Positions 25,829 to 41,279 of a DNA stretch of 64,000 bases are shown here, one piece after another (the stretch's first letter is position 1; every line of letters starts with the position of its first letter). Where the stretch lies: the NCBI GenBank assembly GCA_902543375.1, contig CACBYE010000003.1:28501-92500 (forward strand). Reading direction: 5' to 3'. This stretch comes from an uncultured Pelagibacteraceae bacterium. GTDB lineage: Bacteria; Pseudomonadota; Alphaproteobacteria; Pelagibacterales; Pelagibacteraceae. The position numbers and the translations under genes are program-made. The notes beneath the pieces were generated by a model. It was not told the DNA's origin, ran no database searches, and saw only the letters and a list, made by a program, of their open reading frames with translations.

Positions 25829-26255
25829 ATATATTCCCCAAAATTTTTACATTTTAGACAATACTATATTAGAGAACATATTATTTGGTGAATATGAAAA
25901 TAAAATAAATGATAATCTTTTGTCTGAAGCCTTAAAATTTTCATCTTTAGATGAGTTCATTAACAATCTCCCAGAAAAACTTTATACAATTGTAGGTCCT
26001 AATGGAAAGAAACTTTCTGGGGGACAATCTCAAAGATTAGTAATTGCTAGAGCTATTTATCAGAATACTAATATATTAGTTTTTGATGAAGCCACTAACT
26101 CATTAGATAAAAAAACAGAGGAAGAGATAATAAATAAGATTTATAAATTAAAGGGTAATAAAACAATAATCATAATTACTCATAATCCTAAAATCTTACA
26201 TAAATGTGATAAAATTTTTGAAATTCAAGAAGGTATTTTAAAGCTTCAAACTTAA
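25829..26255 (+). pseudogene. C-terminal remnant of an ABC transporter (flippase-type)
   Basis: The track ORF (start 25812) is only the last 140 residues of an ABC exporter ATPase domain. It has the Q-loop (AYIPQNFYILD), the signature LSGGQSQRLVIARAIY, the Walker B ILVFDEATNSLD and the H-loop IITHNPKIL. All membrane segments and the Walker A motif are missing, so it cannot be functional, and the track's ATG is fortuitous. By hand alignment about two thirds of residues match the intact ABC transporter at 46819-48546, so it is a diverged allele or paralogue rather than a recent copy. It converges on an intact gmhA, sharing a TTAA stop palindrome. Confidence 0.85.
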
Positions 26256-26806
26256 TCAACCAAACTACAGAAAATATGTCCAATTAAGTGATGTATTTCT
26301 TGAATGTTAGCAGTTGATGAAGAAGGAACTACGTAGCTATAACTTGAAATTTTCTTACATTGACCTCCAGTTTTTCCAAGCAAAGCTATTGACTTTATCC
26401 TCATTTTTTTTGATTTCTTTAAAAGATTCACAATATTTTTGCTTTGACCTGATGTGGAAAATACAATCAATAAATCTCCTTTTTGCCCAAGACCCTCTAG
26501 TTGTCTTTCAAATATTCTTTCATATCCAAAATCATTCGCGATACAAGTGAGTACTGAGGTATCAGTTGTTAAAGAAATGGCTTTATAAGGTTTTCTATTT
26601 TTTTTATATCTTCCAACCAATTCACCTGCAAGATGTTCACAGTCTGCTGCACTACCTCCGTTACCAGCAAAAAAAATTGTCTTTTTATTATTAAGCGTCT
26701 CTTTTATATCTTTTGCAATTTTCTCAACGCAATCAAAAATATCTTTTTGATTTTCGTTAATGAGTTTGATGTGTTGATATATATGTTTAAAAATTTTTTT
26801 TTTCAT
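26252..26806 (-). CDS. gmhA: Phosphoheptose isomerase (SIS domain)
   Basis: A 184-aa SIS-domain protein of normal GmhA length. It converts sedoheptulose 7-phosphate to D-glycero-D-manno-heptose 7-phosphate. Motifs are IFFAGNGGSAADCEHLAGELVGRY near residues 44-68, TDTSVLTCIANDFGYERIFERQLEGLGQKGDLLIVFSTSGQS near residues 81-122, and IQEIHHLIGHIFC near residue 168, with the His of the zinc site. It is the first step of the GDP-heptose pathway, whose other genes are at 29.6-33.8 kb. It lies 21 nt downstream of the riboswitch-controlled receptor/DUF6580 operon on the same strand, so co-transcription is possible. Confidence 0.94.
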   Translation of the reverse strand: MKKKIFKHIYQHIKLINENQKDIFDCVEKIAKDIKETLNNKKTIFFAGNGGSAADCEHLAGELVGRYKKNRKPYKAISLTTDTSVLTCIANDFGYERIFERQLEGLGQKGDLLIVFSTSGQSKNIVNLLKKSKKMRIKSIALLGKTGGQCKKISSYSYVVPSSSTANIQEIHHLIGHIFCSLVD

Positions 26807-26827: not shown

Positions 26828-27349
26828 TCAAATAATATTTTTTTCTATTTTGTAAAAATAATTCTTAATTTTGTCTACACAAGCAAATGTGAGATAACTG
26901 AAAAAAATAGTAGACAAAAGTGTATTTGAAAAAAAAGGAACAGCTAGTAAATAACATTGAATTAGGCCATCGATATTTTTTTCATATAAATCACTGTAAG
27001 TCCAAACGAAAAAATTTGTGACTGAATAAAAAATAAAAGAACCGAAAATTGAATGAAAAATTAGATTTTTGTATGTAATCTTATAAAAAATAAAATAATA
27101 TATTAAACCAATAAGTGTTAAAGCAATATAAGTAAATATCATTCCTGGATATAGACCTATAATAAAATCACTAATAAACATTGAGCTAAAAAAAACAATA
27201 ATTGTCAGAGTAAATGTTTGGAACAAAATTCCACCTAGAATAACGATAGATATAATTGGCGTAAAATTTGGAGGATGCGGTATAAGTCTAGAAAAAACTA
27301 AAAGAGTTATTAAAAAACAAATACTACTATTTTTATTAATTATTTTCAT
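26828..27349 (-). CDS. DUF6580-like membrane protein, putative transport component
   Basis: A 173-aa hydrophobic protein with about five membrane segments. FSRLIPHPPNFTPIISIVILGG near residues 20-42 is the conserved opening that I associate with the DUF6580 family of putative transport proteins, related in layout to ECF S components. SSMFISDFIIGLYPGMIFTYIALTLIGLI and SVTNFFVWTYSDLYEKNIDGLIQCY follow. It lies 35 nt downstream of the TonB-dependent receptor behind a cobalamin riboswitch. A role in moving a corrinoid or B12 precursor across the inner membrane is inferred. The family name is from memory and not checked. Confidence 0.7.
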   Translation of the reverse strand: MKIINKNSSICFLITLLVFSRLIPHPPNFTPIISIVILGGILFQTFTLTIIVFFSSMFISDFIIGLYPGMIFTYIALTLIGLIYYFIFYKITYKNLIFHSIFGSFIFYSVTNFFVWTYSDLYEKNIDGLIQCYLLAVPFFSNTLLSTIFFSYLTFACVDKIKNYFYKIEKNII

Positions 27350-27384: not shown

Positions 27385-29313
27385 CTAAAAATTATTCTTA
27401 AAACCAAAATTAAATGTTCTGGGCAATTGCGAATAATCTCTTACTGTTTCATATTTTTCATCAAATAAATTTATAATATTAAAATATAACTTATTATTTT
27501 CTGATAATTTATAATTTATATTCAAATCATTAACAAAATAATCGTCAGTTCTTTCGTCATCAAAAGTTCTATTTCCATTTCCGTAATCTCTTGCTACATC
27601 AGACCACTTAGTACTTAATAAAAAATTAAAATTTTTAAGACCAGATATCTTAAAATTAGTATTTAAATTCAATAAGTTTCTAGGAACTCTTACTAACTGA
27701 GCATTAGTTTGACCTGAGCTCTTATTTGGATTGTCTTGTTCTGCTCCGTCATAAGTAGAGGTATAAGTATAATTTAAATCGAAATTCAAAAATTTGTTTA
27801 ATTTGAAATTTGACATTAATTCTAATCCTTGAGATTTAACTGTGCCTGGATGATTACCAGCGTCCCAGCCTGATGCTTGCCAACCTTCAAGCACATCATG
27901 ATATTTAATATTAAAATAACTCATATCAATTTTTAAACCTATCTCTGGAAATGATTTTTCAATACCGACATCAAAACTCTCGCTATTTTCAGCTTTTTCA
28001 TTTCCGTCATAACCACTTCCTGATTGATAAAAATAAAATTCATATAAAGAGGGATATCTAAAACCTGTGCCGTAAGAGCTTTTTATTTTAGTAAACTTAT
28101 CATCAAAAAGATATGCTAATGTTAGCCTGTGAGAATCCTCATTTCCAGCTAAAGAGTGATTATCAAATCGCGATCCAAATGTTGCAAAAATATTTTCGGA
28201 AAATCTTTTTTGAAAATCGAAATATTTAGAAGTTACGTATGCATCTTTGTAGTCCATTCCTGTCATATTTTTGTTGTAACCAATTGAATCATCCTCTCTT
28301 TCAAGACCAAAAACTATACTATTATCTAAATTCAAATTGTAGTTTCCTTGATATAGAAAGGAGTATCTTTCACCATAATAGCTATCTTGCTTTGTATTGT
28401 TGCTATTAATTGCAGCATTGTAAATTCTTTTTATATACGTATTTGCAACAGTAAATTTATTTTCAAGATTTTTTAATGGTTTGTGTATCAAACTTATATT
28501 TCCAGATGACTCAATTGCATCCACATCTTCAGCATGGTCATAACTAGGTGAACAACCAAACAAATTAGAAACACATGTTGCATCATATTGCAAATATGTA
28601 TCTGCAATCCTGTAATTACTGTTTAACTCAAAATTATCAAAAAAATTATAATTATAACTAGCTATTATACTGTTATTTCTGTACCTATCTTTTTCATCGT
28701 TATGCATCATTTGAGAAATTCCCTCAGTCTGAAATCTTTCAAATCCAACAAAATAATTTTTATAATCATCACCTCCAGAAATTGAAGTCGATAAATTATG
28801 TGTTCCTTCAGAGCCTGTTAAATAATTTAGATTTTTATTAAACCCAGGCTTACCTTTTTTGGTGGTAATATGAATTGTTCCCCCTATAGCTCCACTTCCG
28901 TAAATAGAGCTTTGATTTCCTTTTAATATTTCAACTCTTGATATTTGACTCGTTAAAATATTATTAAAGTCAAAATCGTTTGAAACACTAGACGGATCAG
29001 ACATTTTTACTCCATCAATGTAAACTGTGGAATATCTTTTTGGCATTCCTCTTAGCTGAATTGCAGAAGCTGTTCCATGGCCACCACTTTGAAAAAAATT
29101 CGCACTTGTTGTCTTTGAGGATAAAACATCTCCCAAAAAATATTCAGTACTATTATTCAAATATTCTTCATCAAATATCACAACAGATGTCCCAACAACT
29201 GATAATGATTGAGGTTTTTTATTTGGTGCAATAACAATAATTGGAATTTCTTTTGAATAAGAATTTAAAGGAAAGATTAGCAAAAAAAATAAAATACACA
29301 CTTTTAACAGCAT
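27385..29313 (-). CDS. TonB-dependent outer-membrane receptor, BtuB-like
   Basis: A 642-aa TonB-dependent receptor. The first 20 residues (MLLKVCILFFLLIFPLNSYS) form a signal peptide, and KEIPIIVIAPNK resembles a TonB box. The plug domain follows, with LGDVLSSKTTSANFFQSGGHGTASAIQLRGMPKRYSTVYIDGVKM and GNQSSIYGSGAIGGTIHITTKKG (residues about 60-155). The remainder is beta-barrel, ending in a C-terminal aromatic (FGFKNNF), as outer-membrane barrels do. The cobalamin riboswitch upstream indicates B12 or another corrinoid as ligand. TonB, ExbBD and BtuCDF are not in the window. A clear GAGG ribosome-binding site lies 6 nt before the ATG. Confidence 0.92.
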   Translation of the reverse strand: MLLKVCILFFLLIFPLNSYSKEIPIIVIAPNKKPQSLSVVGTSVVIFDEEYLNNSTEYFLGDVLSSKTTSANFFQSGGHGTASAIQLRGMPKRYSTVYIDGVKMSDPSSVSNDFDFNNILTSQISRVEILKGNQSSIYGSGAIGGTIHITTKKGKPGFNKNLNYLTGSEGTHNLSTSISGGDDYKNYFVGFERFQTEGISQMMHNDEKDRYRNNSIIASYNYNFFDNFELNSNYRIADTYLQYDATCVSNLFGCSPSYDHAEDVDAIESSGNISLIHKPLKNLENKFTVANTYIKRIYNAAINSNNTKQDSYYGERYSFLYQGNYNLNLDNSIVFGLEREDDSIGYNKNMTGMDYKDAYVTSKYFDFQKRFSENIFATFGSRFDNHSLAGNEDSHRLTLAYLFDDKFTKIKSSYGTGFRYPSLYEFYFYQSGSGYDGNEKAENSESFDVGIEKSFPEIGLKIDMSYFNIKYHDVLEGWQASGWDAGNHPGTVKSQGLELMSNFKLNKFLNFDLNYTYTSTYDGAEQDNPNKSSGQTNAQLVRVPRNLLNLNTNFKISGLKNFNFLLSTKWSDVARDYGNGNRTFDDERTDDYFVNDLNINYKLSENNKLYFNIINLFDEKYETVRDYSQLPRTFNFGFKNNF

Positions 29314-29571: not shown

Positions 29572-30735
29572 TCACCGTAGTTTGGATTCAAAATTAAGTA
29601 TTCTAAATTTAATTTTTGCATTTATCGCTGTTTGTTTGTCAGTCTGACTGTCTCCAATTAAAAAAGACTGGCTCATTTTAATACAAAACTCTTCCCTAGC
29701 TTTTTGAATCATTCCAATATTAGGTTTTCTTAGGTTTTTTTGTAATCGATATTTATTCACTTTTGAGTCTTTGAAATATGGTGCAAAATATATTCTATCA
29801 ATATTTCCACCATGTGATCTTATTTTATCTACCATCCAGCTATGTAATTTGAGCACATCCTTTTCCTTATAATATCCTCTGCCAATGCCTGATTGATTTG
29901 TAATTATGAATATATAAAAATTTTTTTTATTATATTTCTTTATAAAGTTGATTATATTTTTCCTCCAAATAAATCTATTTTTCTCAAAAACATATCCTGT
30001 ATCCTTATTAATTACGCCATCTCTATCAAGAAAAAGAGCGGGTTTAGTAAATATCTTATTAATGAATTTCGGTAATTTTTTTAAAGTAGAAATATGCCCC
30101 ATATCAATAAAATCATCAGAATAGACACTTCCAGATATTTTTTTAATTCTAATTAACTTTGTAAATACATCTTTTTCTAAGGAGCCTAATTTAACTAAAT
30201 ATGGTATAATTTTTTTAGACAAAATACATATACCTGAATTAATTAAATTTAATTTTTTATCACTGTCTTGTGTAAGTAATTTTTTTTTATCAAGGCCAAA
30301 GAAGTCGTAACTTCCTCTAATTTTCATTTTCTTAAGTGCAATAAATGCTATTTTTTTACTTTTGTGATAATTGTAAATTAAATCAGATATATTTATATCA
30401 AAAAAAGTGTCTCCGTTACAAAATAAAAAATCTTTTTCTAATTTTTTTCTAGCATGGTACAGGGCCCCTGAAGAACCTAAAAGTTTTTTTTCTTGAATAC
30501 AAAATACCTTTACTCCAAAAAATATCTTATTATGAAATTTTTTTTCAAATAATGAATACTTATAGTGACCCAATAAAATTACTTTTTTAATTCCAAATCG
30601 ACTTAGGTTTTTAATTATATGTTCCAACACAGTAAGATTTTTAACATTTATTAATGGTTTAGGTGTTTTAAGAGTTAACTTTCCAAGCCTCTTACCGTAG
30701 CCACCACAAACTATTACTGCTTGAGTAATACTCAT
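29572..30735 (-). CDS. Fusion: heptose-1-phosphate guanylyltransferase (HddC-like) + heptose bisphosphatase (GmhB-like)
   Basis: A 387-aa two-domain protein. Residues 1 to about 225 form a sugar nucleotidyltransferase, starting AVIVCGGYGKRLGKLTLKTPKPLINVKN and with FLFCNGDTFFDI near residue 104. Residues from about 230 form a HAD phosphatase, with PALFLDRDGVINKDTGYVF (DxD), IFIITNQSGIGRGYY, and SFLIGDSQTDKQTAINAKI. This pairs two steps of GDP-D-glycero-alpha-D-manno-heptose synthesis that are separate genes in the classical pathway. The N-terminal half could instead be a mannose-1-phosphate-type enzyme, but HddA and GmhA nearby favour heptose. It abuts the next gene by 1 nt. Confidence 0.88.
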   Translation of the reverse strand: MSITQAVIVCGGYGKRLGKLTLKTPKPLINVKNLTVLEHIIKNLSRFGIKKVILLGHYKYSLFEKKFHNKIFFGVKVFCIQEKKLLGSSGALYHARKKLEKDFLFCNGDTFFDINISDLIYNYHKSKKIAFIALKKMKIRGSYDFFGLDKKKLLTQDSDKKLNLINSGICILSKKIIPYLVKLGSLEKDVFTKLIRIKKISGSVYSDDFIDMGHISTLKKLPKFINKIFTKPALFLDRDGVINKDTGYVFEKNRFIWRKNIINFIKKYNKKNFYIFIITNQSGIGRGYYKEKDVLKLHSWMVDKIRSHGGNIDRIYFAPYFKDSKVNKYRLQKNLRKPNIGMIQKAREEFCIKMSQSFLIGDSQTDKQTAINAKIKFRILNFESKLR

Positions 30736-30736
30736 T

Positions 30737-31681
30737 TTAATAATTGTTTTTATTGTCCCTGAAATTAAAGGTATTAAATAAATTTTTTAGTTCAATGATA
30801 CCATCATCTAAAGATATTGAGGGTCGAAAACCTAATTTTTCGATCTTTTTATTACTAACAAAATAATCTCTTTTATCAGGATCTTTTTTATTTTTAAGAA
30901 GATTAATTTTGATACCTTTAATATTTTTTGTTATTCGTTTTGCTAATTGTAATTTTGTTAAATTCGCATTTGATAATCCTACATTATAGATGTTTCCCTT
31001 CATCTTACTAAAATTTTCTAGTGCAAAGATAAAAGCATTTGCAACATCAATTACGTGAATATAATTTCTTCTAAAATGTGGTTCAAAAATAGTTATTTTT
31101 TTATTTCTTATAGCCATATTAACCAAAAAATTAACCAATAAGTCTGTTCTCATTCTATATGAATAACCAAAAACTGTAGCTAATCTAAATACGATAGAAT
31201 TTCTGTGCCTCAAAATAATTTTTTCTGCTTCAACTTTAGTTCTGCCATATAAAGATATAGGCTTTAAAGGGGATTTTTCATCGCAAAATTTATTTTTATC
31301 TCCTATGCCATACCCAGAATTAGTGTTTGGATAGATTATTTTTTGAGAAGTCTTAAGTTTGGATAGAATAAACTTTACGCATTTATAATTTATTTCTAAG
31401 GTTTTTTTCGGATATTTTGCACATAAAGGAGCACCAACGAGAGCAGCTAAAGGAATAATTATATCATTTTTTCTCAACTCCTTGGTCATTAATTTTTTAT
31501 CTCTAACATCACCGTTTATGAATTTAAAATTATTTTTTACAAAAAGATGAGATAAAGAAATTTTATTAAATTCTAAAATATCAATGACAGTCACATCATA
31601 ACCTAAATACACTAATTTGGTTGTTAAAATAGAGCCTAGGTAGCCAGCACCACCGGTTATAAGTATTTTTTGTTTTTTCAT
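30737..31681 (-). CDS. NAD-dependent epimerase/dehydratase (extended SDR)
   Basis: A 314-aa nucleotide-sugar SDR. ILITGGAGYLGSILTTKLVYLGYDVTVIDIL is the Rossmann start, IIPLAALVGAPLCAKYP near residue 76 is the NAD-side loop, YPNTNSGYG near residue 117 contains the serine, and YGRTKVEAEKI near residue 145 is an intact YxxxK. RRNYIHVIDVANAFIFAL near residue 205 is the substrate-side R-x-Y-I-H-V motif. It follows the 4,6-dehydratase gene on the same strand and probably epimerises or reduces the GDP-heptose-derived sugar. Exact chemistry is not readable. Confidence 0.85.
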   Translation of the reverse strand: MKKQKILITGGAGYLGSILTTKLVYLGYDVTVIDILEFNKISLSHLFVKNNFKFINGDVRDKKLMTKELRKNDIIIPLAALVGAPLCAKYPKKTLEINYKCVKFILSKLKTSQKIIYPNTNSGYGIGDKNKFCDEKSPLKPISLYGRTKVEAEKIILRHRNSIVFRLATVFGYSYRMRTDLLVNFLVNMAIRNKKITIFEPHFRRNYIHVIDVANAFIFALENFSKMKGNIYNVGLSNANLTKLQLAKRITKNIKGIKINLLKNKKDPDKRDYFVSNKKIEKLGFRPSISLDDGIIELKNLFNTFNFRDNKNNY

Positions 31682-31760: not shown

Positions 31761-32747
31761 TCATATTTTCTTAGAATTGATTTTTCTCCTATAATTAAGC
31801 AAATCATCCAACGACTCATTTAATTTCATTTTAGGTTTCCATTTAGTATCTTTAAAAAATTTTTTTGAATTTGGTATTTGCAAAGTTACGTCTACTGGAC
31901 GGATCAAAGATTTATCAACTTTTGTCTTGATCTTAATTTTTGAGCGACGAATTAAATCTTTTAAAATTCCTCCCACAGATACAACAGAATTTCCTCCGAT
32001 GTTGTAAATTTCACCTATTTTTCCTTTTTTTGCAACCAACCAATATGCTCTCATTGCATCACTTATACTTATAAAAGTTCTAATACTTTTTAAATTACCA
32101 TGATATAAAAAATTTCCTTTTTTATTTTTTTTTTCTAATTTTGAAATTTGATCAGCAAAACTAGTCTGAAATAAGTTTGTTCTTTTTGGATTTATATAAG
32201 AGAACATTCTTGTTATAATTATTTTTTGTTTATAAACTTTGAAATAAATTTGACTTAGTAGATCTTGATAAACTTTGGATAAAGCATATGGACTAGCAGG
32301 ATTAAACCTCTGGGACTCTTTAATCGGTATATCTTTTTTATTTACTAAACCATAAACTTCTGAGGTACTACATATAATAATTAATGGATTTATTTTACTA
32401 GACCTAATTGCCTCTAATAAATTAATTGTAATTTTATAATTATTATTAATTATTTGCATCGGCTCATCGAAGGATTTTCTTACATCAGCATTTGATGCTA
32501 AATGATATATAAGATCAGGCTTAATTTCATTAATATTTTGCTTAATTTTTTTATAACTCATCAAATCAATTTTCTTAAATTTTATTTTTTTTCGTACTGT
32601 ACTATCAATCATTTCTAATTTTTTTTGATTTCTATAAAAACCATATAATTGGATTTTTTTTTCATATTTGGAAATATATTCTGCTAAATAACTACCTCCA
32701 GATCCTGTAATTCCAGTGATTAAACATTTTTTAAATTTTCTATTCAT
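31761..32747 (-). CDS. GDP-mannose/GDP-heptose 4,6-dehydratase-like
   Basis: A 328-aa extended SDR close to GDP-mannose 4,6-dehydratase. Motifs are CLITGITGSGGSYLAEYI near residue 8, YHLASNADVRKSFDEPMQIINNNY near residues 80-104, CSTSEVYG near residue 125 with the T/S-S-E catalytic trio, and YALSKVYQDLL near residue 152. In the presence of hddA/hddC homologues it may act on GDP-D-glycero-D-manno-heptose like DmhA of Campylobacter and Yersinia, giving the 4-keto-6-deoxy sugar. GDP-mannose is the alternative substrate. The 79 nt downstream hold no gene. Confidence 0.87.
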   Translation of the reverse strand: MNRKFKKCLITGITGSGGSYLAEYISKYEKKIQLYGFYRNQKKLEMIDSTVRKKIKFKKIDLMSYKKIKQNINEIKPDLIYHLASNADVRKSFDEPMQIINNNYKITINLLEAIRSSKINPLIIICSTSEVYGLVNKKDIPIKESQRFNPASPYALSKVYQDLLSQIYFKVYKQKIIITRMFSYINPKRTNLFQTSFADQISKLEKKNKKGNFLYHGNLKSIRTFISISDAMRAYWLVAKKGKIGEIYNIGGNSVVSVGGILKDLIRRSKIKIKTKVDKSLIRPVDVTLQIPNSKKFFKDTKWKPKMKLNESLDDLLNYRRKINSKKI

Positions 32748-32786: not shown

Positions 32787-33779
32787 TTAAAAACTTTTAT
32801 AAATAATTTCACTTCCTGCTTCATTTCCCGATATCCTAAAATGGACTTTATTTTTAAGACTTTTTACTAATCTTTTTTGATTTTTTTCATTTTCTGTTAA
32901 AAAAAGAATATATCCTCCACCACCAGCGCCTAAAAGTTTTCCACCAACTGCTCCATTATTAATGCCAAAATTATAGAGTTTTTCTATTTTTGAGTTACTG
33001 ACCATGTGAGATAATTTTTTCTTTATATGCCAGCTTCTATTTAATAATTTACCAATTTCAATTAAGAAATCGTTATTGTTTGACTCTAAAATCTTTTTAG
33101 CTTCTTGGGTAATCTTATTGAGTTCAGACAAATTTTTGAAATTCTTCATAATATTTTTTTGTTTATCTTTTTCAATTGGATCTGCTTTTCGTTGAATACC
33201 TGAAAATACTATTAGGCTATTCTTAAAGATTTTTTTTTTTTTACTTGCTAATATTTTTAATGGTCTGACTCCAACATTTCTCTTGGAATATTTAATTACA
33301 TTGAATCCCCCAAAAGCACTTGAATACTGATCTTGATAACCGACAGACTCTTTGAGCATATTTCTTTCTACATAGATTGCTTTTTCAGATATTTTTTTTT
33401 TACTTAAGTGAATATCATTCCATTCGTGAATAGAGTTTATTAAAGAAACTGTAAAAGCAGAACTAGAGCCTAAGCCAGAAAGACCAGGTATGTCTGAACT
33501 ATGATAAATTTCAAAATTACAATCTGTGATGTTATATTTTTTTAAAATAGCTTTTATACTTGGGTGTCTTACATCAGAAATATTTTTTGGTGTTTCGGTT
33601 TTAAAATATCTCAACCTGTACTTAAAAGGAAACGTTTTCGGTAATTCTCTTATTAATATGTAGCAATATTTATCTATTGCCATTGAAATTGTCATTCCGT
33701 TATATTTATTGAACCAAGTTGGAAAGTCTGTACCACCACCAAATAGTGAAACTCTTAAGGGTGTCTTACATAATATCAT
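32787..33779 (-). CDS. hddA: D-glycero-alpha-D-manno-heptose 7-phosphate kinase (GHMP family)
   Basis: A 330-aa GHMP kinase. MILCKTPLRVSLFGGGTDFPTWFNKYNG is the characteristic HddA start. PGLSGLGSSSAFTVSLINS near residue 94 is the GHMP glycine-rich ATP loop. VGGKLLGAGGGGYILFL near residue 278 is motif 3. It phosphorylates C1 of heptose 7-phosphate in the GDP-linked branch, which agrees with the nearby GmhA and HddC-GmhB proteins. The start lies 51 nt from the divergent reductase gene. HddA-like kinases also occur for fucose and mannose, but TDFP and context favour heptose. Confidence 0.9.
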   Translation of the reverse strand: MILCKTPLRVSLFGGGTDFPTWFNKYNGMTISMAIDKYCYILIRELPKTFPFKYRLRYFKTETPKNISDVRHPSIKAILKKYNITDCNFEIYHSSDIPGLSGLGSSSAFTVSLINSIHEWNDIHLSKKKISEKAIYVERNMLKESVGYQDQYSSAFGGFNVIKYSKRNVGVRPLKILASKKKKIFKNSLIVFSGIQRKADPIEKDKQKNIMKNFKNLSELNKITQEAKKILESNNNDFLIEIGKLLNRSWHIKKKLSHMVSNSKIEKLYNFGINNGAVGGKLLGAGGGGYILFLTENEKNQKRLVKSLKNKVHFRISGNEAGSEIIYKSF

Positions 33780-33830
33780 TGATTTGTTTTACTTGATTTG
33801 AATAAATTATTAAATATAAATTATATTATT

Positions 33831-34784
33831 TTGAAAGTTAATAAAATCATTATTTTTGGAGCAAGTGGATTTATAGGAAAAAATATTGCTCTAAATTTTA
33901 AAAAAAAATTTAAAAACACAAAAATTATTGGCACTTATTTTAAAAATAAACCTTATGTAAAAGGGATTCGTTTTATAAAGTGTGATCTTAGGAATAAAAA
34001 AAGTGTAGATAAGATATTAAAAAAAGCTGACATAATTATTCAAGCTGCTGCTATTACTTCTGGCGCAAAAGAAATAATCAATAAACCAAATATACACGTA
34101 AGTCAAAATGCAATTATGAACTCTATAGTCACTCAATCTGCTTTTGAAAACTATGTGAAACATGTAATTTTATTTAGCTGCACCTTAATGTATAAATCTT
34201 CAAATAAAGCACTAAGAGAGATTGACTTTAATGCAAATGAAGAGATGTATCCTAATTATTTTGGGGGTGGATGGATGAAAGTATTTGTTGAGAAGCTTGG
34301 GGAGTTTTATTCTCGATTGAATAGAAACAAATATACACTGATAAGACACTCAAATATTTATGGACCTCATGATAAATTTGATTTAGAAAAATCTCATGTT
34401 TTTGGAGCATCTATTAATAAAGTAGTCAATTCTAATAATAATATGCTTACTGTATGGGGTAAGGGTTTGGAGGGTAGAGATTTATTATATATTGATGATC
34501 TTGTGAGATTTGTAGAATTAGCAATAAAAAATCAAAAAAAACAATTCGGACTTTATAATGTTGGCTATGGAAAACTTATAACTATTAATAATCTGGTAAA
34601 AAGAATTATTAGAATTTATGGTAAAAAAATTGATGTTTATAATGATTTATCAAAAAAAAGTTTAAAAAATAGCGTTTTTTTAAATTGTAATAAGGCTTAT
34701 AAAGAGTTGCGATGGAAAAAAAAAATATCTTTAAATCAAGGTATAAAAAAAACTTTAAAATGGTATTTAGAAAATAATAAATGA
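33831..34784 (+). CDS. GDP-L-fucose-synthase-like epimerase/reductase
   Basis: A nucleotide-sugar SDR of 317 aa. The track start (TTG at 33798) adds an unlikely hydrophobic tail, so I prefer the TTG at 33831, giving MKVNKIIIFGASGFIGKNIAL. IRHSNIYGPHDKFDLEKSHVFGASI near residue 178 is the hallmark of GDP-fucose synthase (Fcl) relatives. The catalytic area reads YPNYFGGGWMKVFVEKLGEFY, which departs from a plain YxxxK. It is a candidate for the C3/C5-epimerase-reductase step after the 4,6-dehydratase. The TGA stop overlaps the next ATG (ATGA). Confidence 0.8.
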   Translation: MKVNKIIIFGASGFIGKNIALNFKKKFKNTKIIGTYFKNKPYVKGIRFIKCDLRNKKSVDKILKKADIIIQAAAITSGAKEIINKPNIHVSQNAIMNSIVTQSAFENYVKHVILFSCTLMYKSSNKALREIDFNANEEMYPNYFGGGWMKVFVEKLGEFYSRLNRNKYTLIRHSNIYGPHDKFDLEKSHVFGASINKVVNSNNNMLTVWGKGLEGRDLLYIDDLVRFVELAIKNQKKQFGLYNVGYGKLITINNLVKRIIRIYGKKIDVYNDLSKKSLKNSVFLNCNKAYKELRWKKKISLNQGIKKTLKWYLENNK

Positions 34785-35314
34785 AAAAAAGTGCAATAAT
34801 TTTATCTGGAAATCTTGTTCAAGATCATGAATTTATCTATCCATTTTATAGGTTATTAGAAGAAGGTTTTAATGTGGAAGTATGTCTGAATGAGGGAAAA
34901 CCTGTAAAAGGAATTCTAGGAACAGATATACCTCCTAATAAAAACCATGCAGTTAAAGATATCAAATCTGTTGACACAAAAAATTACGATTTTTTAGTAA
35001 TACCTGGTGGTGTAAAATCACTCGAAAAAGTTCGTCAAAACAGAGATATAATTAATTTTATATCACAATTTCACAAAGAGAGTAAAATTATTGCATGTAT
35101 TTGCAGCGGTGCCCAATTATTAATATCAGCAAAAATTGTTAAAGGAAAAAAAATATCTGGATACTATAGTATGAAAGATGATATTGAAAATGCAGGAGCA
35201 ATTTATACAGATCTACCAGCAGTAATTGATAGTAAAATAATTACGACTGCTCATTACAAAGACTTGGGTCCATGGATGAAGGCAGCTTTAGATTTGTATT
35301 ATAAAGAAAAATAA
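34781..35314 (+). CDS. DJ-1/PfpI family protein
   Basis: A 177-aa single-domain protein of the DJ-1/PfpI superfamily. FLVIPGGVKSLEKVRQN near residue 67 contains the GG turn. IIACICSGAQLLISAKIVKGKKISGYYSM near residue 105 holds the nucleophile-elbow cysteine, where the common C-H-G is C-S-G. It is translationally coupled with the reductase upstream and followed 4 nt later by the cupin gene. The superfamily covers glyoxalases, amidases, isonitrile hydratases and chaperones. The role here is unknown, though a small-molecule hydrolase or lyase in sugar modification is plausible. Confidence 0.82.
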   Translation: MKKSAIILSGNLVQDHEFIYPFYRLLEEGFNVEVCLNEGKPVKGILGTDIPPNKNHAVKDIKSVDTKNYDFLVIPGGVKSLEKVRQNRDIINFISQFHKESKIIACICSGAQLLISAKIVKGKKISGYYSMKDDIENAGAIYTDLPAVIDSKIITTAHYKDLGPWMKAALDLYYKEK

Positions 35315-35318
35315 TTAA

Positions 35319-35984
35319 ATGAAAAACTTTTTAGTAAAAAAGCCATGGGGAGAGGAATATATTATATGTAAGACTAACAAGGCAGCCACTTGGCATTTGA
35401 AAATTAATCCAAGAAAGAAAACCTCACTACATTGTCATCCAAATAAAAAAACAGGTTTTATTCTTCTAGACGGAAAAGTTGAGGTCATGATTGGCTTTTA
35501 CGAAAAAAGAGTCTTAAAAGCTCCTGATAAATTAATGATAAGACCTGGTTTATTTCACTCAACTAAAGGATTATCAAAAAAAGATAGTGTTGTTCTAGAA
35601 ATTGAAACACCAATTAACAAAAATGATCTAGTTAGATATAAAGACAATTACGGTAGAGAAAACAAACCATATGAGGGGAAAAACTACATGAAAAAATTAA
35701 AAAATGAGATTATTTTTAGAATCCCAAAAAAATTTTCATGTAATATTTATAAATATAAAGATCTAAAAATTACAGTTGAGAAAATTAAAAGTTTAAAAAA
35801 ACTTACTTTAAACAGAAAAAAAGATACAATCTTTGGAATATTGGATGGAGGGTTGGTTGATAAAAATAAAAAGTATGTTTTGTCAGCAGGTGATATAGTG
35901 AGAACAAATACTGTGAGAAAACTAACTGAAGCTTTTAAAATTAACAAACAAATTACGATACTAACTTGTTCAAAAAGTGCATAA
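35319..35984 (+). CDS. Double-cupin protein
   Basis: A 221-aa protein with an N-terminal cupin: KKPWGEEYIICKTNKAATWHLKINPRKKTSLHCHPNKKTGFILLDGKVEVMIG, containing the H-x-H metal ligands and glycine motif near residues 33-55, and MIRPGLFHSTKGLS near residue 75 with the distal His. The second half (ITVEKIKSLKKLTLNRKKDTIFGILDGGL) looks like a second cupin without the histidines. The start WGEE resembles cupins of phosphomannose isomerase/cytidylyltransferase type. It lies between the PfpI and E1 genes and overlaps E1 alpha by 8 nt, so it belongs to that module. Confidence 0.8.
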   Translation: MKNFLVKKPWGEEYIICKTNKAATWHLKINPRKKTSLHCHPNKKTGFILLDGKVEVMIGFYEKRVLKAPDKLMIRPGLFHSTKGLSKKDSVVLEIETPINKNDLVRYKDNYGRENKPYEGKNYMKKLKNEIIFRIPKKFSCNIYKYKDLKITVEKIKSLKKLTLNRKKDTIFGILDGGLVDKNKKYVLSAGDIVRTNTVRKLTEAFKINKQITILTCSKSA

Positions 35985-36819
35985 AAATCTAAGAATAAAA
36001 ATTTTTGAGAAAGCTTCTCTTTGCCGTCATTTTGAGACTAATGCTTACAAATTTTCAGAAAAAAAGTTAATAAAAATACCTATTTATTTATCTGCAGGTC
36101 AAGAGTTTATCTCTGCAAGTCTTGCAACAATAATAAACGACATATATAAAATTAAACCTTTAATTTTTGCTCAACATAGATGTCATTCAACTTATTTATC
36201 TTTTGGAGGGGAAATAGATAATTTAATTGCTGAATTATTAGGAAATTACAGATTAAGTAATACAAAATGTATGGGCGGGTCTGCTTCAATCTATTCAAAA
36301 AAAATAAATATGTTTGGGCATGATGGTCATATGGGAACTCAAGTTCCTATAGGAATTGGGGCCTGTTTTACATCAAAAAAACCCACCATTGTTTTTATGG
36401 GAGACGCGTCTGCTGAAGAAGATTACGTTTTGGGTGCTTTAGGTTGGGCCGCTACAAAAAAACTACCAATATTATTTATTGTTGAAGATAATAACCTATC
36501 AATTTTAACTGAAAAAAAAGTGAGAAGAAATTGGGATATGCACGATGTAGCTAGATCATTCAAAATGAAAGGTTTTAATTTAAAGGATAGTCCTCGTGAA
36601 ATTGAAAAATACAAAAAATTTTTTTTTAAAGAACCAATGCTCTTAAATATAAATACAAATAGAATGTTTTGGCATGCTGGAGCTGGTAAGGATAGTGATA
36701 AGACATTTGATAGATATTTAAAAGAAAAAAAAATTTTAGGTAAAGAGGCAGAAAAAATTGACAAAAAATTCAATTCTATGGTTAAAAAATTATGGGAAAA
36801 ACACTTAAAGAAACAATAA
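35977..36819 (+). CDS. Thiamine-diphosphate dehydrogenase E1 alpha-like subunit
   Basis: A 280-aa E1-alpha-like protein, GTG start. IPIYLSAGQEFISASLATII near residue 34, FAQHRCHSTYLSFGG near residue 68, LLGNYRLSNTKCMGGSASIYS near residue 90, and the ThDP/Mg motif VFMGDASAEEDYVLGALGWAATKKLPILFIVEDNNLSI near residues 130-168 are in the expected order. The usual GDG is GDA. It is shorter than pyruvate E1 alpha. No E2 lipoyl-transferase or E3 gene lies in the window, so the pair may perform a non-oxidative carboligation or transketolase-like step on a sugar. It overlaps the cupin and E1 beta genes. Confidence 0.85.
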   Translation: MHKNLRIKIFEKASLCRHFETNAYKFSEKKLIKIPIYLSAGQEFISASLATIINDIYKIKPLIFAQHRCHSTYLSFGGEIDNLIAELLGNYRLSNTKCMGGSASIYSKKINMFGHDGHMGTQVPIGIGACFTSKKPTIVFMGDASAEEDYVLGALGWAATKKLPILFIVEDNNLSILTEKKVRRNWDMHDVARSFKMKGFNLKDSPREIEKYKKFFFKEPMLLNINTNRMFWHAGAGKDSDKTFDRYLKEKKILGKEAEKIDKKFNSMVKKLWEKHLKKQ

Positions 36820-37700
36820 AAGAAATTATAAGAAAACACCTTAAAAATAAAAAAGGTAAAGTATTTGGACAATGCTTAACTGCAGTTGGATGGGTCGGTG
36901 GTACTTTGCCAGAATTGTATGAAAAAGATGGTATGATTGAGCTGTCTATGGCAGATGTTGCTGGTGGAGGAATTGTTACGGGCTCTGCACTCATGAAAGA
37001 AAAACCTATATATGTAATAAGATATCAGGGCTTTAATTGGTACAATGCTCCTATGATCGTAAACTATGCAGCAAAAAGCAAGGAGATATGGAATACACCA
37101 TGTCCAGTTTTTGTAAGAGGAATTGGAATGGAGGGAGGAATTGGTCCGGTTGCAGGATCATCACACCACTCACTTTATTATAGAATGCCAGGATTGAAAA
37201 TTGTGTCTCCTATGACACCCAACGAATACAAAAAGATTTATGATAGTTTTATGAAAGATAATGAAGTTTATTATGTATCAGAACATCGTGGAAGCTTTAA
37301 TAACAGAATAGAATTAAAAAACGATATTAAGGGAAGAAAGGATTTTGTAATTATTGCGATTTCAATTACTAGATTTGAGGCAATTAAGGCTAAAGAAATC
37401 CTTGAAAAAAAAGGCCTCAAAATTGGAATTATTAATATATTATGGATCAAGCCTTTAAAAGTTTCTAAAGCATCAATTAAATGTATAGCTAACTCTAAGT
37501 TTGGAGCCTTGATACTTGATGATGATTATGTTGATGGAATTTCAAATAGTATTGCAAATAAACTAAGTCATCTTACTAATAAAAAAATATTTACTCTTGG
37601 CTTATCGGATAAAAGTGCTGGCTTCCATAAAAGAGTTGATAATTTACCCCCAAACTCTAGTCAAATAGTCAAAAAAATTATTTCCTTAATCAGAAACTAG
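36792..37700 (+). CDS. Thiamine-diphosphate dehydrogenase E1 beta-like subunit
   Basis: A 302-aa E1-beta/transketolase C-terminal-like protein. QCLTAVGWVGGTLPELYEKDGMIELSMADVAGGGIVTGSALM near residues 27-68 holds the glutamate-type cofactor contact. PVFVRGIGMEGGIGPVAGSSHHSLYYRMPGLKIVSPMTPNEYKKIY follows near residues 108-153. It overlaps E1 alpha by 28 nt, so the two are co-translated and surely form one heterotetramer. Its substrate is unknown. The stop CTAG palindrome is shared with the converging Nudix gene. Confidence 0.85.
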   Translation: MGKTLKETIKEIIRKHLKNKKGKVFGQCLTAVGWVGGTLPELYEKDGMIELSMADVAGGGIVTGSALMKEKPIYVIRYQGFNWYNAPMIVNYAAKSKEIWNTPCPVFVRGIGMEGGIGPVAGSSHHSLYYRMPGLKIVSPMTPNEYKKIYDSFMKDNEVYYVSEHRGSFNNRIELKNDIKGRKDFVIIAISITRFEAIKAKEILEKKGLKIGIINILWIKPLKVSKASIKCIANSKFGALILDDDYVDGISNSIANKLSHLTNKKIFTLGLSDKSAGFHKRVDNLPPNSSQIVKKIISLIRN

Positions 37701-38257
37701 AAAGTTTTTTTCATAATTAAAAAATAAGAAATTGCAGCATACGAGATTAAATCAAAAGTATGAGGCTTTTCTAACATTTTCTTAATTTTTTTAAGATTAA
37801 AGAAATAGATTTTACCTGTACCAACTTCTTTTTGTCTTAATCTAAAATTTGAAGAATCTAAATTTTTTAAGGAGGCAAAATATATTGCTAGCTTTGACTT
37901 TACTAGACTATGCATGGGTAAAATCTTACAAAGATATCTAATATTTTTTTTGTCAATTTTAAGACCAGTTTCCTCTAGTATTTCACGTTTTATTGCAACC
38001 GAAGAAGTTTCATTCTTGTCGCAAAATCCTTGAACAAGAGAATATAAATATTGTTTTAGAATAGGACTATAAACTTTCATAAGACCAATTTTTTTTTTGT
38101 TAGATATTATACAACAAACACCACCAAATCTTTTTCCAGCGACTTCGAGTGTAAGGTAGTCTTTAATAATGTAATGTTTACTTTTAATATAATTTGAGTA
38201 AGCTTTATAAACTTGATTTTTAAAAACCAATTTTTTTTTTTTGATAATTTGCACCAA
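37697..38257 (-). CDS. Nudix hydrolase
   Basis: A 186-aa Nudix-fold pyrophosphohydrolase. The box GFCDKNETSSVAIKREILEETGL near residues 83-105 fits GX5EX7REUXEEXGU exactly. The layout with GGVCCIIS and LVQGFCDKNE resembles ADP-ribose and nucleotide-sugar pyrophosphatases. It could remove a side product or hydrolyse a nucleotide-linked sugar made by nearby genes. It is divergent from the aldo-keto reductase with an 8-nt gap. Confidence 0.88.
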   Translation of the reverse strand: MVQIIKKKKLVFKNQVYKAYSNYIKSKHYIIKDYLTLEVAGKRFGGVCCIISNKKKIGLMKVYSPILKQYLYSLVQGFCDKNETSSVAIKREILEETGLKIDKKNIRYLCKILPMHSLVKSKLAIYFASLKNLDSSNFRLRQKEVGTGKIYFFNLKKIKKMLEKPHTFDLISYAAISYFLIMKKTF

Positions 38258-38265
38258 AAGTTTAT

Positions 38266-39234
38266 ATGAAATATTTTAAATTAGGTAAATATAATATTTC
38301 AAAATATTGTTTAGGAACATGGTCTTTAGGAAGTGATAGGGAAAAAAATATTTCATACGGTACTATATCTGACTCGAAGGTTAACAAAATTCTTGAATAC
38401 TCATATAACAAAGGAATTAATTTTTTTGATACAGCAAATGTTTATGGTGACTCAGAAAAAAAAATTGGAAATTACTTTCATAAAAAAAGGGATAAAGTTT
38501 TTTTTGCTACAAAAGTCGGGTGTGTATCTTTTAAAAAAAAACTTAATTTCTCTAAGAAAATAATTCAATCTCAAATAGACAATTCTTTGAAAAATTTAAA
38601 AAGTGACTACATTGATATAGTTCAACTATATAATCCTGACTCTAACGATAATAATTTGAAATATGCAATTGAGCATCTAGATAATTTAAAGAATAAAAAA
38701 AAGATTAATTTCATAGGTATAAGTCTCGGTCAACCCTCTGATTATATCAAAATAAGAAATCTTTATAAATTTAGTTCTATTCAATGCAACTTCAATATAC
38801 TTGATCAGAGAGTTCTAAATAACAAAATTAATCAAATAATTAAAAAAGATAAAGTAAAAATTTTAGCAAGAACAATTTTAAATTTTGGAATATTCACAGA
38901 AGAATTTTTGATGCGAAAGATTATTAAGTTTAATAAGAATGACCACAGATTTTACTGGGACTTAAAACAGATAAAACTTTGGATAAAATATATAAATAAA
39001 GTTAAGTTAAATTCAAATAGATCAATAGAAAATACTTGCTATAGATTTTGTAATTCATTTAAAATTGACTCATTAATTATTGGTGCAAATAACTTAAGCC
39101 ACTTAAACACAGCACTAAATAAGAATAATGATATAAAACTTAAAAGTAACGAACTTAAGTATATTTCTAAAATTTACAAAGAATATGCAAAAAATAAAAT
39201 GATTAAACCAAAAATTGGGATGAAGTTAACTTAA
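38266..39234 (+). CDS. Aldo/keto reductase
   Basis: A 322-aa AKR-family oxidoreductase using NADPH on a carbonyl. CLGTWSLGSDREKNISYG near residue 14 starts the barrel, and INFFDTANVYGDSEKKIG near residue 48 carries catalytic D and Y. FATKVGC near residue 79 supplies the K, and IDIVQLYNP near residue 113 replaces the usual D-x-x-x-x-H strand, with N instead of H. SLIIGANNLSHLNTAL near residue 277 is the NADP loop. It probably reduces a keto-sugar or related metabolite in this module. Its stop shares a TTAA with the radical SAM gene. Confidence 0.87.
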   Translation: MKYFKLGKYNISKYCLGTWSLGSDREKNISYGTISDSKVNKILEYSYNKGINFFDTANVYGDSEKKIGNYFHKKRDKVFFATKVGCVSFKKKLNFSKKIIQSQIDNSLKNLKSDYIDIVQLYNPDSNDNNLKYAIEHLDNLKNKKKINFIGISLGQPSDYIKIRNLYKFSSIQCNFNILDQRVLNNKINQIIKKDKVKILARTILNFGIFTEEFLMRKIIKFNKNDHRFYWDLKQIKLWIKYINKVKLNSNRSIENTCYRFCNSFKIDSLIIGANNLSHLNTALNKNNDIKLKSNELKYISKIYKEYAKNKMIKPKIGMKLT

Positions 39235-41279
39235 ACTATATAAGGACCTAAAAGTCTCCCTGCATTTTCATCTGTAGCAGTTTCAGCTAAATTTTTTTCT
39301 TTATCATCAATGGTAGTGCTCTCAATTTTTTCAATATTACATAAATATTTACCACTTCTGTGTCCATACCAAATCACTTCTCTCATCCAATGCTGAATAT
39401 CATTAAATTTCATATCGGTTCTAGTAATTTTGACTCTATTATTTTTTGCAATAATATTTGGTTTATTAAGTTTTAGGATGTCTCGATAGCTTTCTATGAT
39501 GTTGTAACTCAAATTTAATATTTCATCATCATCACTCCAAGGTAATCGCATCATTTTTTTGTTTAATTCAACACTTTCTGAAAAAATTCTCTGAGTTTTT
39601 TCACTTTTACAAAATTTTAAAAAATGTTGCTTAAATTCAATGTAAAATTGATCAAGTTTTTTATCAGCCACTAATTTGATATATTCAAATTCTCCTGGAG
39701 GCCAATAAATATCCAAAAAACCTTCTTTATATAAAAATTCACTTTTACCTTTAGATATTTGCTCTGCATGTAGCTCAAAATTACGATTTATTGACTTTAA
39801 GGTTTCGAAATCATCTCCACATTTAGAAAAATGTTCAAACAAATCTCTAAATTTTATTTTTTCTAATTCATTTATTACTAGCAATGGAATTTGAGTAATT
39901 TTATTGAAATATAAAAACTCAGAAATAGATGCATATACTCTTGTTCTTTTCCAATCATTAAATGGTAAAGATTTTGTAGAAATAACTAATTGCTGACTTT
40001 CATTAATATTATCCTCAGGAGTTTCATCTAATGATCCATGAACATTCACTATAGGACAACTAACTGTCATGATTTTATCTTTTTCCATATTTTGTGGTTC
40101 AGCCATTTCAGCATTGGGTAAAATTGACAAATTGTTGAATTGAATCCTATTGTGTTGTCCAGATTGGATTACATTAGATACACCTTCAGCAAATGAAGAA
40201 TATGTGTCACCCGGTAAAGCAAGAATAAATTCAGTGTAGGTAGCAATACCATCGTTTGTAAATCTTTTTTGAAGTTCCTCGTAATCTTCTGTGGAAATAT
40301 TGTCTCTTTTAATTGCTTCAAGTGTGTGTGGATCCACACTTTGCATTGCAAGTGTTACTCCTTTACTCAAACCAGAGTCAGCAAGTAATTTCTGAACTTT
40401 GTAAGCTCTTTCTCTTGCATTTTTTGTATTTTGAACTGAGAGGACATGTGGGTATCCGTACTTTTTTTTATTTTCAGCTGCTCTGAGAGCTATATCATAA
40501 TCCCTTGGAAGCATTCCAAAATTTGCGTCACAACAAAATATAAATTCAACTTTATTTTTTGAGAACCAATCTAGTTCTGCATATACTCTGTCGAGATGCA
40601 TTCTAGAAACCTTGCTATTAGTTGCTGAACCCCAATCACAATATGTACATGAGAATGGGCATCCTCTATTAGTTTCCCAGCTAGCTAACCACTTTTCTTC
40701 TGGATTTTCTTTTATTAGTTCATCAAATATTCCAGTCAGGTAAGGAGAAGGCACCTTATCAAAATCTCTTAACCTCGGTAAATTAGGATTATTTCTATAC
40801 TCTCCATTTTTTGCTATATAACTTATGTTAGGGGTATCCTCAAATTTGTTATTCGGAAATTCATCTAATAGTTTTAAAATCGTTCTCTCACCCTCTTGAT
40901 GTGACAGAACATCAATAAAAGGATATTTTCTAATAAATTCTTCTGCTTTGCCAAATTTATTGTCAGGAACAGAAGGTCCACCAAAAATAATAAATTTATT
41001 TTTGTCGAATTTTTTTAACTTCTCGGCAATAGCTAGAGAAATTTTTTCATTCCATACATAGGTGCTAAATAAAACTACATCTCTATCTTTTAAATGCTCA
41101 AAGCACTCATTTAATAATTTTCTCTTATAAATGATACTATTAAAACTAAATTTTTCAGGATTTTCCGAATTACGAAGAATAAATGCATAAAGCAACCCTA
41201 TTGAATATGGTAAATAAAATTGACCAGAAAAACCATTATTGATCTGTGTTGCACCAATCTTAATTTTTTGTTGTTTCAT
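39231..41279 (-). CDS. Radical SAM enzyme with B12-binding-like N-terminal domain
   Basis: A 682-aa protein with two recognisable domains. Residues 1 to about 170 are a B12-binding-type Rossmann domain: SIGLLYAFILRNSEN, VVLFSTYVWNEKISLAIAEKLKKFD, FIIFGGPSVPDNKFG. It lacks the classical DxHxxG histidine. The radical SAM domain begins near 195 with WETNRGCPFSCTYCDWG (CxxxCxxC cluster ligands) and extends past TEFILALPGDTYSS. The C-terminal 250 residues are not recognisable. Relatives catalyse methylation or other radical rearrangements. Its composition looks less Lys/Asn-rich than neighbouring glycosyltransferases. It may explain a need for cobalamin uptake. Confidence 0.88.
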   Translation of the reverse strand: MKQQKIKIGATQINNGFSGQFYLPYSIGLLYAFILRNSENPEKFSFNSIIYKRKLLNECFEHLKDRDVVLFSTYVWNEKISLAIAEKLKKFDKNKFIIFGGPSVPDNKFGKAEEFIRKYPFIDVLSHQEGERTILKLLDEFPNNKFEDTPNISYIAKNGEYRNNPNLPRLRDFDKVPSPYLTGIFDELIKENPEEKWLASWETNRGCPFSCTYCDWGSATNSKVSRMHLDRVYAELDWFSKNKVEFIFCCDANFGMLPRDYDIALRAAENKKKYGYPHVLSVQNTKNARERAYKVQKLLADSGLSKGVTLAMQSVDPHTLEAIKRDNISTEDYEELQKRFTNDGIATYTEFILALPGDTYSSFAEGVSNVIQSGQHNRIQFNNLSILPNAEMAEPQNMEKDKIMTVSCPIVNVHGSLDETPEDNINESQQLVISTKSLPFNDWKRTRVYASISEFLYFNKITQIPLLVINELEKIKFRDLFEHFSKCGDDFETLKSINRNFELHAEQISKGKSEFLYKEGFLDIYWPPGEFEYIKLVADKKLDQFYIEFKQHFLKFCKSEKTQRIFSESVELNKKMMRLPWSDDDEILNLSYNIIESYRDILKLNKPNIIAKNNRVKITRTDMKFNDIQHWMREVIWYGHRSGKYLCNIEKIESTTIDDKEKNLAETATDENAGRLLGPYIV

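Follow-up and report, generated by a model that had tools for sequence, protein, structure and literature searches.

A four-gene cassette encoding a DJ-1/PfpI-family protein (DJ1), a double cupin (CUP) and the alpha- and beta-like subunits of a thiamine diphosphate (ThDP)-dependent E1 enzyme (E1A and E1B) lies at positions 34781-37700 of a 64,000-nucleotide stretch, hereafter the window, of contig CACBYE010000003.1 from an uncultured Pelagibacteraceae bacterium, whose SAR11-type genome of 1.07 Mb is 92% complete. The reading that is favoured here, with some reserve and on the basis of sequence comparison, is that E1A/E1B may be an E2-less E1-type carboligase acting on a GDP-keto-sugar to give a C-branched sugar. 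All four genes are on the + strand behind an NAD-epimerase gene (Table 1), and the intergenic spacings from NAD-epimerase through DJ1, CUP and E1A to E1B are −4, +4, −8 and −28 nt, in agreement with an earlier note on this DNA that described the four genes as locked together by overlaps and a short gap. The same note called the upstream gene a GDP-sugar reductase; the protein belongs to the NAD-epimerase/reductase family (PF01370), with GDP-L-fucose synthase as the top NCBIfam match under the cut-off.

Active site of the E1 pair and lack of E2/E3 partners

Both subunits carry the domains of the E1 (alphaKADH2) ThDP superfamily above the Pfam gathering scores, i.e., E1_dh in the alpha and Transket_pyr plus Transketolase_C in the beta subunit, and the pair is a distant match to pyruvate dehydrogenase (PDH) E1. 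The cofactor motif of E1A reads GDA...EDN, with GDA replacing GDG, and residues D143, A144, E147, E148 and N172 are invariant in 61/61 cellular sequences, the ThDP/Mg residues D143 and N172 being invariant in 65/65 viral sequences as well. When the E1A profile was compared with the PDB, it matched only 2-oxoacid dehydrogenase E1s, namely those of PDH and branched-chain 2-oxoacid dehydrogenase (BCKDH), and an acetohydroxyacid synthase (AHAS). The Glu of E1beta that contacts N1′ of ThDP is central to ThDP activation. By alignment with PDH E1beta structures, Asp55 of E1B occupies this position. All aligned homologues have Asp there (cellular 56/56, viral 65/65; 121/121 in total), whereas the other E1beta groups examined all have Glu. 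Because the N1′-contacting Glu is missing, E1B is placed in the superfamily through overall homology, as a variant, and its Asp is an exception at a residue long regarded as key for ThDP activation.

A SucB- or Lpd-like protein was found in none of the 61 cellular and 67 viral E1 loci. The source genome has a single E2, SucB, whose gene lies outside the window together with those of SucA and Lpd, and most near-complete relatives in the genus have two E2s. In G001, a one-contig genome that is rated 100% complete and carries the E1 pair, one E2 accompanies SucA and the other directly follows a single-chain AceE-like E1, which was named from its C-terminal sequence. Since no E2/E3 occurs at the loci and both G001 E2s have their own E1, the pair has no partner complex, as the earlier note had claimed, and the E2/E3 partners elsewhere that this note named as its refutation did not turn up in the complete genome. 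The cognate lipoyl E2 and E3 that characterize 2-oxoacid dehydrogenase complexes are therefore absent, and identity with a housekeeping PDH was rejected because the E2s are paired with their own E1s.

Sugar-gene context, partner proteins and viral copies

When 84,980 species genomes were scanned, 60 loci were obtained; the clade of the E1 pair has 61 cellular loci and spans about ten groups at phylum level, its carriers including SAR11, SAR116, Betaproteobacteria, Colwellia, Nitrospira, Omnitrophota, several candidate phyla, Planctomycetota, Verrucomicrobia, Chloroflexi and others. Close homologues (45-100%) occur in 12 of the 397 genomes of the order sample, and of the 58 cellular pairs with adjacent genes, 29 show the −28-nt overlap between E1A and E1B. 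The E1A sequences are monophyletic (SH-aLRT 99) on a long branch, apart from all other E1alpha sampled, among them E2-associated E1alpha, the lankacidin-plasmid E1 and a second E1 group of SAR11 sugar loci; their exact placement is unsure, as some outgroups are long-branched. Plasmids gave just three ordinary E1 matches, with an E2 present in the two loci inspected.

The genes around the pair point consistently to nucleotide sugars. The E1 loci end at 8 kb or at contig ends, so that the neighbour counts per 61 loci are lower bounds: HddA-like kinase 41, DegT (ColD-like) 38, the NAD-epimerase epi1 36, cupin 34, DJ-1 30, B12-radical-SAM protein 27 and HddC/GmhB 22. A gene for HddA, HddC, ColD, a GDP-mannose-4,6-dehydratase-like (GMD-like) protein or epi1 lies within 8 kb of the pair in 47/61 loci, placing an E2-less E1 pair among keto-sugar genes. 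Among the order genomes, an HddA-like kinase is present in 11/12 pair carriers versus 64/385 others (Fisher p 6e-8); for a close ColD-like gene, the figures are 8/12 versus 15/385 (p 1.5e-8). Both values are uncorrected for shared ancestry. The gene set and its sugar context, for which the earlier note had proposed a search, are widely conserved, and the non-sugar context that would have spoken against it was not encountered. An artefact or chance adjacency was ruled out by the 61 cellular and 67 viral loci together with the genome association test.

In the window itself, the genes on the opposite strand make up a putative complete GDP-heptose set plus a 4,6-dehydratase (Table 1), in which the GmhA-like SIS protein is presumed to be the sedoheptulose-7-phosphate isomerase and the GMD-like protein presumably yields a 4-keto-6-deoxy sugar. 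Because the HddA, HddC and GmhB matches fall under the equivalog cut-offs, a heptose substrate is probable rather than proved. The best solved relatives of the DegT proteins are ColD (1e-51), with CDP-4-keto-6-deoxyglucose 3-dehydrase matching too, and the first His of their HH motif, which replaces the pyridoxal phosphate (PLP)-binding Lys and is Asn in the ColD structure 3b8x, is present in 36/36 readable sequences. The ColD match and the replacement of the PLP Lys by His suggest that these proteins should be 3-dehydratases, and an aminotransferase identity was ruled out by the His in place of Lys. Many loci should therefore yield a 4-keto-3,6-dideoxy sugar, which is the acceptor type of the carboligase YerE (PMC12247030). 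The ColD-like gene of the source genome is located in another island (G000:C4:104588-105751, L142), where adjoining genes have homologues in E1 locus L058.

DJ1 shares Cys108 and Glu17 with 90% or more of 30 homologues, as expected of the DJ-1/PfpI nucleophile site, and its closest solved structures are DJ-1 homolog D and PfpI proteases/deglycases. In CUP, His38, His40 and His80 are invariant in a 36-sequence alignment, the Glu that usually serves as a ligand is not conserved, and the AlphaFold model shows a bicupin fold (pLDDT 93). The CUP sequence found no match of value in the PDB, and a fold search returned generic bicupins only (OxdC, cysteine dioxygenase, KdgF and phosphomannose isomerase), which point to no function. 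Small HAD phosphatases recur beside the cupin. In two Omnitrophota, cupin and E1A are fused in a single open reading frame (L090:7155-8825 and L091:5264-6982; 556 and 572 aa), the cupin half being identified from sequence motifs under the Pfam threshold. These fusions, and the presence of DJ-1, cupin, E1A and E1B together in 61/67 viral contigs, link the E1 pair with DJ-1 and cupin.

However, the partners are not the same everywhere. Nine loci (L072-L078, L080, L087) encode, instead of DJ-1/cupin, an AHAS-like protein with three Pfam domains, whose best PDB match is JanthE (8rph, 279 bits versus 233 for AHAS), a YerE-like carboligase that joins 2-oxoacids to ketones (PMC12188165). This protein is accordingly nearest to a YerE-like carboligase, for which ketone acceptance is predicted, and its closeness to JanthE implies that the nine loci carry branching chemistry. 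These sugar loci thus have two ThDP carboligase types each, plus a ColD-like gene where the contig reaches. Nine other loci have a class I aminotransferase and/or an isopropylmalate synthase (IPMS)-like protein. The partner states are mutually exclusive (DJ-1/cupin 35, AHAS-like 9, aminotransferase/IPMS 9, mixed 0, unclassed 8) and changed three times on the tree. This pattern would suit loci that differ in how the acyl donor is supplied or, in the case of the YerE-like protein, the presence of a further carboligase; the idea of a donor slot is only a lead, since the AHAS-like protein is nearest the ketone-accepting JanthE and the loci are cut at contig ends.

The pair also occurs on 67 IMG/VR contigs (L150-L216), 52 of them distinct at 95% E1A identity, with the cassette order DJ1-CUP-(HAD)-E1A-E1B-ColD(-HddA-epi1). 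A T4-type major capsid protein was detected in 9 and a terminase domain in 8 of 44 tested viral contigs, and in L223 (G439:C1:16001-34000) genes for a head protease, scaffold, capsid, tail tube and helicase lead straight into a cassette of the order CUP-HAD-radical SAM-DJ1-E1A-E1B-x-HddA-ColD-epi1. At least in the contigs with such T4-like hallmarks, the cassette genes are true phage genes; for the remaining contigs, phage status is that of the IMG/VR classification. The cassette was not found in GenBank phages, which gave just two acetoin dehydrogenase E1 matches, with an E2 beside the one inspected, and PHROGs gave no meaningful match to the E1 pair.

Proposed reaction, known systems and alternatives

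From these genes we infer a reaction, its substrates, a role for DJ1 and CUP and a use for the product. E1A and E1B would form a 2-oxoacid dehydrogenase E1-type ThDP enzyme, presumably alpha2beta2, in which a 2-oxoacid would be decarboxylated and the acyl carbanion added to the ketone of a nucleotide-linked sugar, giving a C-branched sugar. GDP-heptose would be built by GmhA, HddA, GmhB and HddC and converted by the GMD-like enzyme to the 4-keto-6-deoxy form, and the acceptor here may be GDP-4-keto-6-deoxy-heptose or, with the ColD-like enzyme at work, the corresponding 3-deoxy sugar. Epimerases or the aldo-keto reductase might reduce the branched product, the most likely role of DJ-1 and cupin would be in making or processing a non-standard donor, and the product could enter a surface polysaccharide or, in phages, serve the modification of host or virion glycans. 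A broader proposal is offered tentatively, i.e., that a widely exchanged and so far unrecognised ThDP module of SAR11, candidate phyla and T4-like phages might combine an Asp-type E1 pair with a non-pyruvate acyl donor supplied by DJ-1/cupin (and HAD phosphatase) to make C-branched, chain-extended GDP-heptoses, with new reactions for DJ-1 and cupin and with phages altering host or virion glycans.

E1-type pairs without E2 have been shown or proposed to place a two-carbon branch on keto-sugars in actinobacterial antibiotics, namely avilamycin, aldgamycin, paulomycin and kibdelomycin (PMC12247030, PMC4425429), where pyruvate is decarboxylated and acetyl is transferred to the keto-sugar (PMC12247030, PMC4425429, PMC4753412); for KbDH, ketone coupling was demonstrated in vitro (PMC12247030). 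The principle of branching by such enzymes is thus known, but the exact gene set, for which the earlier note knew of no described pathway, is indeed not described in the literature searched. Compared by description rather than sequence, AviB1/AviB2, the aldgamycin enzyme, Pau11/Pau12 and KbDH-alpha/beta share with the focal pair an E2-less E1alpha/E1beta in a sugar pathway and are the known system most like it in working. However, those are actinobacterial antibiotic genes with a pyruvate donor and a two-carbon branch, whereas the carriers of the focal pair are Gram-negatives, candidate phyla and viruses, its neighbours are GDP-heptose genes, DJ-1 and cupin, and Asp replaces its ThDP Glu. According to a review, branching in surface glycans falls to YerE-like enzymes, whereas the E1 type serves mainly antibiotics (PMC12247030), so that E1-type enzymes encoded at GDP-heptose loci and by phages represent a new variant.

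ThDP-dependent branching of 3,6-dideoxy-4-keto sugars by YerE is classical in lipopolysaccharide. YerE, ErwE and JanthE (yersiniose, erwiniose) likewise branch such nucleotide sugars in surface glycans with a 3-dehydratase upstream, but they are single-chain AHAS-type enzymes acting on a CDP-hexose, whereas the E1 pair belongs to another ThDP superfamily and GDP-heptose is implied. The GDP-colitose pathway shares a GMD-like enzyme and a ColD-like 3-dehydratase with a catalytic His; it has no counterpart of the E1 pair, and heptose genes are a feature of the focal loci. The lincosamide octose pathway (LmbR, LmbN, LmbP, LmbK, LmbO) uses HddA-, GmhB- and HddC-like steps on a higher-carbon GDP-sugar, although there the C–C bond comes from the transaldolase LmbR and here a ThDP pair would make it.

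If the carboligase reading is true, E1-type sugar branching would extend from antibiotics to cell surfaces and phage-host contact, and possible reactions are offered for DJ-1 and cupin proteins. The SAR11 carriers are among very abundant marine bacteria, and the resemblance of the pair to PDH E1 by homology can mislead SAR11 and viral metabolic reconstructions. Several points weigh against this reading: the HddA-, HddC- and GmhB-like proteins all score under their equivalog cut-offs, the ColD-like gene is absent from the window (the source genome's copy being on another contig, C4), DJ-1 and cupin are without an assigned reaction, a YerE-like carboligase and the E1 pair coexist in nine loci, where one may act otherwise, and the Asp-for-Glu exchange in E1B could signal a different chemistry. 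The last point would lead to an unusual reaction that bypasses the classic ylide route, e.g., an acyloin rearrangement or a keto-sugar isomerisation, which is improbable in spite of the uniform Asp (121/121) against Glu in all related E1beta examined, given that the pair retains the remaining cofactor residues and that the Glu position can vary in other ThDP enzymes, being Val in glyoxylate carboligase.

Two further alternatives are each unlikely, though they deserve somewhat more attention than an unusual reaction. The pair might be a split transketolase or DXS-like enzyme that works ahead of nucleotide activation and supplies the HddA-like kinase with a higher-carbon sugar phosphate, much as the transaldolase LmbR does for lincosamide octose, which would explain why E1B lies immediately 5′ of HddA in many loci and why a cupin and HAD phosphatases, suggestive of sugar-phosphate chemistry, flank E1A. 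However, a split transketolase is not borne out, as E1A has only the Pfam families E1_dh and TPP_enzyme_C and its PDB profile matches, PDH/BCKDH E1 and AHAS, include no transketolase; moreover, the GmhA-like isomerase of the window would take ordinary sedoheptulose-7-phosphate, and 2-oxoacid-type enzymes replace DJ-1/cupin in several loci. Of the two activities raised in the earlier note, carboligation to a keto-sugar remains the best reading, and a transketolase-like two-carbon addition is less likely in view of the PDB profile matches. Alternatively, the pair could be a dedicated decarboxylase or acyloin synthase that delivers a small donor (an aldehyde or hydroxyketone) to another enzyme such as a YerE-like carboligase. 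The nine loci with both enzymes would suit this, as would the use of hydroxylated C4-C6 2-oxoacids by some YerE-like enzymes such as ErwE (PMC12247030). However, a YerE-like enzyme is absent near the pair in most cellular and all examined viral loci, leaving the E1 pair usually as the sole candidate carboligase. Very improbable is cooperation with a housekeeping E2 to give acyl-CoA, with which the E1-family domains, the cofactor motifs and the distant PDH E1 match would agree, because both E2s of the complete G001 have their own operon E1, viral loci have no E2 and the sugar context is found throughout.

Other genes of the window and further E1 groups

Table 1. Genes of the cassette and its surroundings, with positions in the window
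Feature	Position	Strand	Evidence and remarks
DJ-1/PfpI-family protein (DJ1)	34781..35314	+	DJ-1_PfpI PF01965 2e-37
Double cupin (CUP)	35319..35984	+	Cupin_2 1e-6 (Pfam)
E1alpha-like ThDP subunit (E1A), 280 aa, GTG start	35977..36819	+	E1_dh PF00676 3e-17
E1beta-like ThDP subunit (E1B), 302 aa	36792..37700	+	Transket_pyr PF02779 3e-10, Transketolase_C PF02780 1e-7
NAD-dependent epimerase/reductase	33798..34784	+	PF01370 1e-31; opens the operon and overlaps DJ1 by 4 nt
NUDIX hydrolase	37697..38257	−	PF00293 1e-7; neighbour kept in closest relatives, 7 loci
Aldo-keto reductase (AKR)	38266..39234	+	NCBIfam AKR matches; cluster in 9 loci
HddA-like GHMP sugar kinase	32787..33779	−	NF049969 181.8 bits (equivalog cut-off 600); 41/61 E1 loci
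GDP-mannose-4,6-dehydratase-like (GMD-like) protein	31761..32747	−	PF16363 3.5e-58
NAD-epimerase (epi1)	30737..31681	−	PF01370 4.7e-32; 36/61 E1 loci
HddC-like nucleotidyltransferase and GmhB-like phosphatase, fused	29572..30735	−	TIGR00213 139 bits (cut-off 149.6), NF049965 102 bits (cut-off 300)
GmhA-like SIS protein	26252..26806	−	PF13580 1e-22; about 3 kb beyond the HddC/GmhB fusion

Downstream of the cassette, the aldo-keto reductase, a conserved neighbour of the pair at loci of SAR11 and SAR116, could reduce the new ketone. It is followed by a 682-aa radical SAM protein (39231-41279) with no B12-binding match, which SAR11, SAR116 and a few candidate phyla also encode close to their E1 pairs. 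Within the glycan island on the other side, a 642-aa TonB-dependent-receptor-like protein (27385-29313) adjoins a DUF6580 protein (26828-27349).

Two further E1 groups were observed. A separate E1alpha/E1beta group of about 320/350 aa (L047-L054 in SAR11 and L148 on an Azospirillum plasmid) keeps the Glu and has no E2; it is often found beside NAD-epimerases or DegT genes and is matched in some 34/397 order genomes at 25-37% identity. In ten loci (L061, L066, L067, L074-L076, L087, L105, L188, L208), a second, miniature E1 pair lies directly 3′ of E1B, consisting of a 200-aa E1_dh and a 178-aa Transket_pyr protein in which the Glu is present and the beta part is without Transketolase_C.

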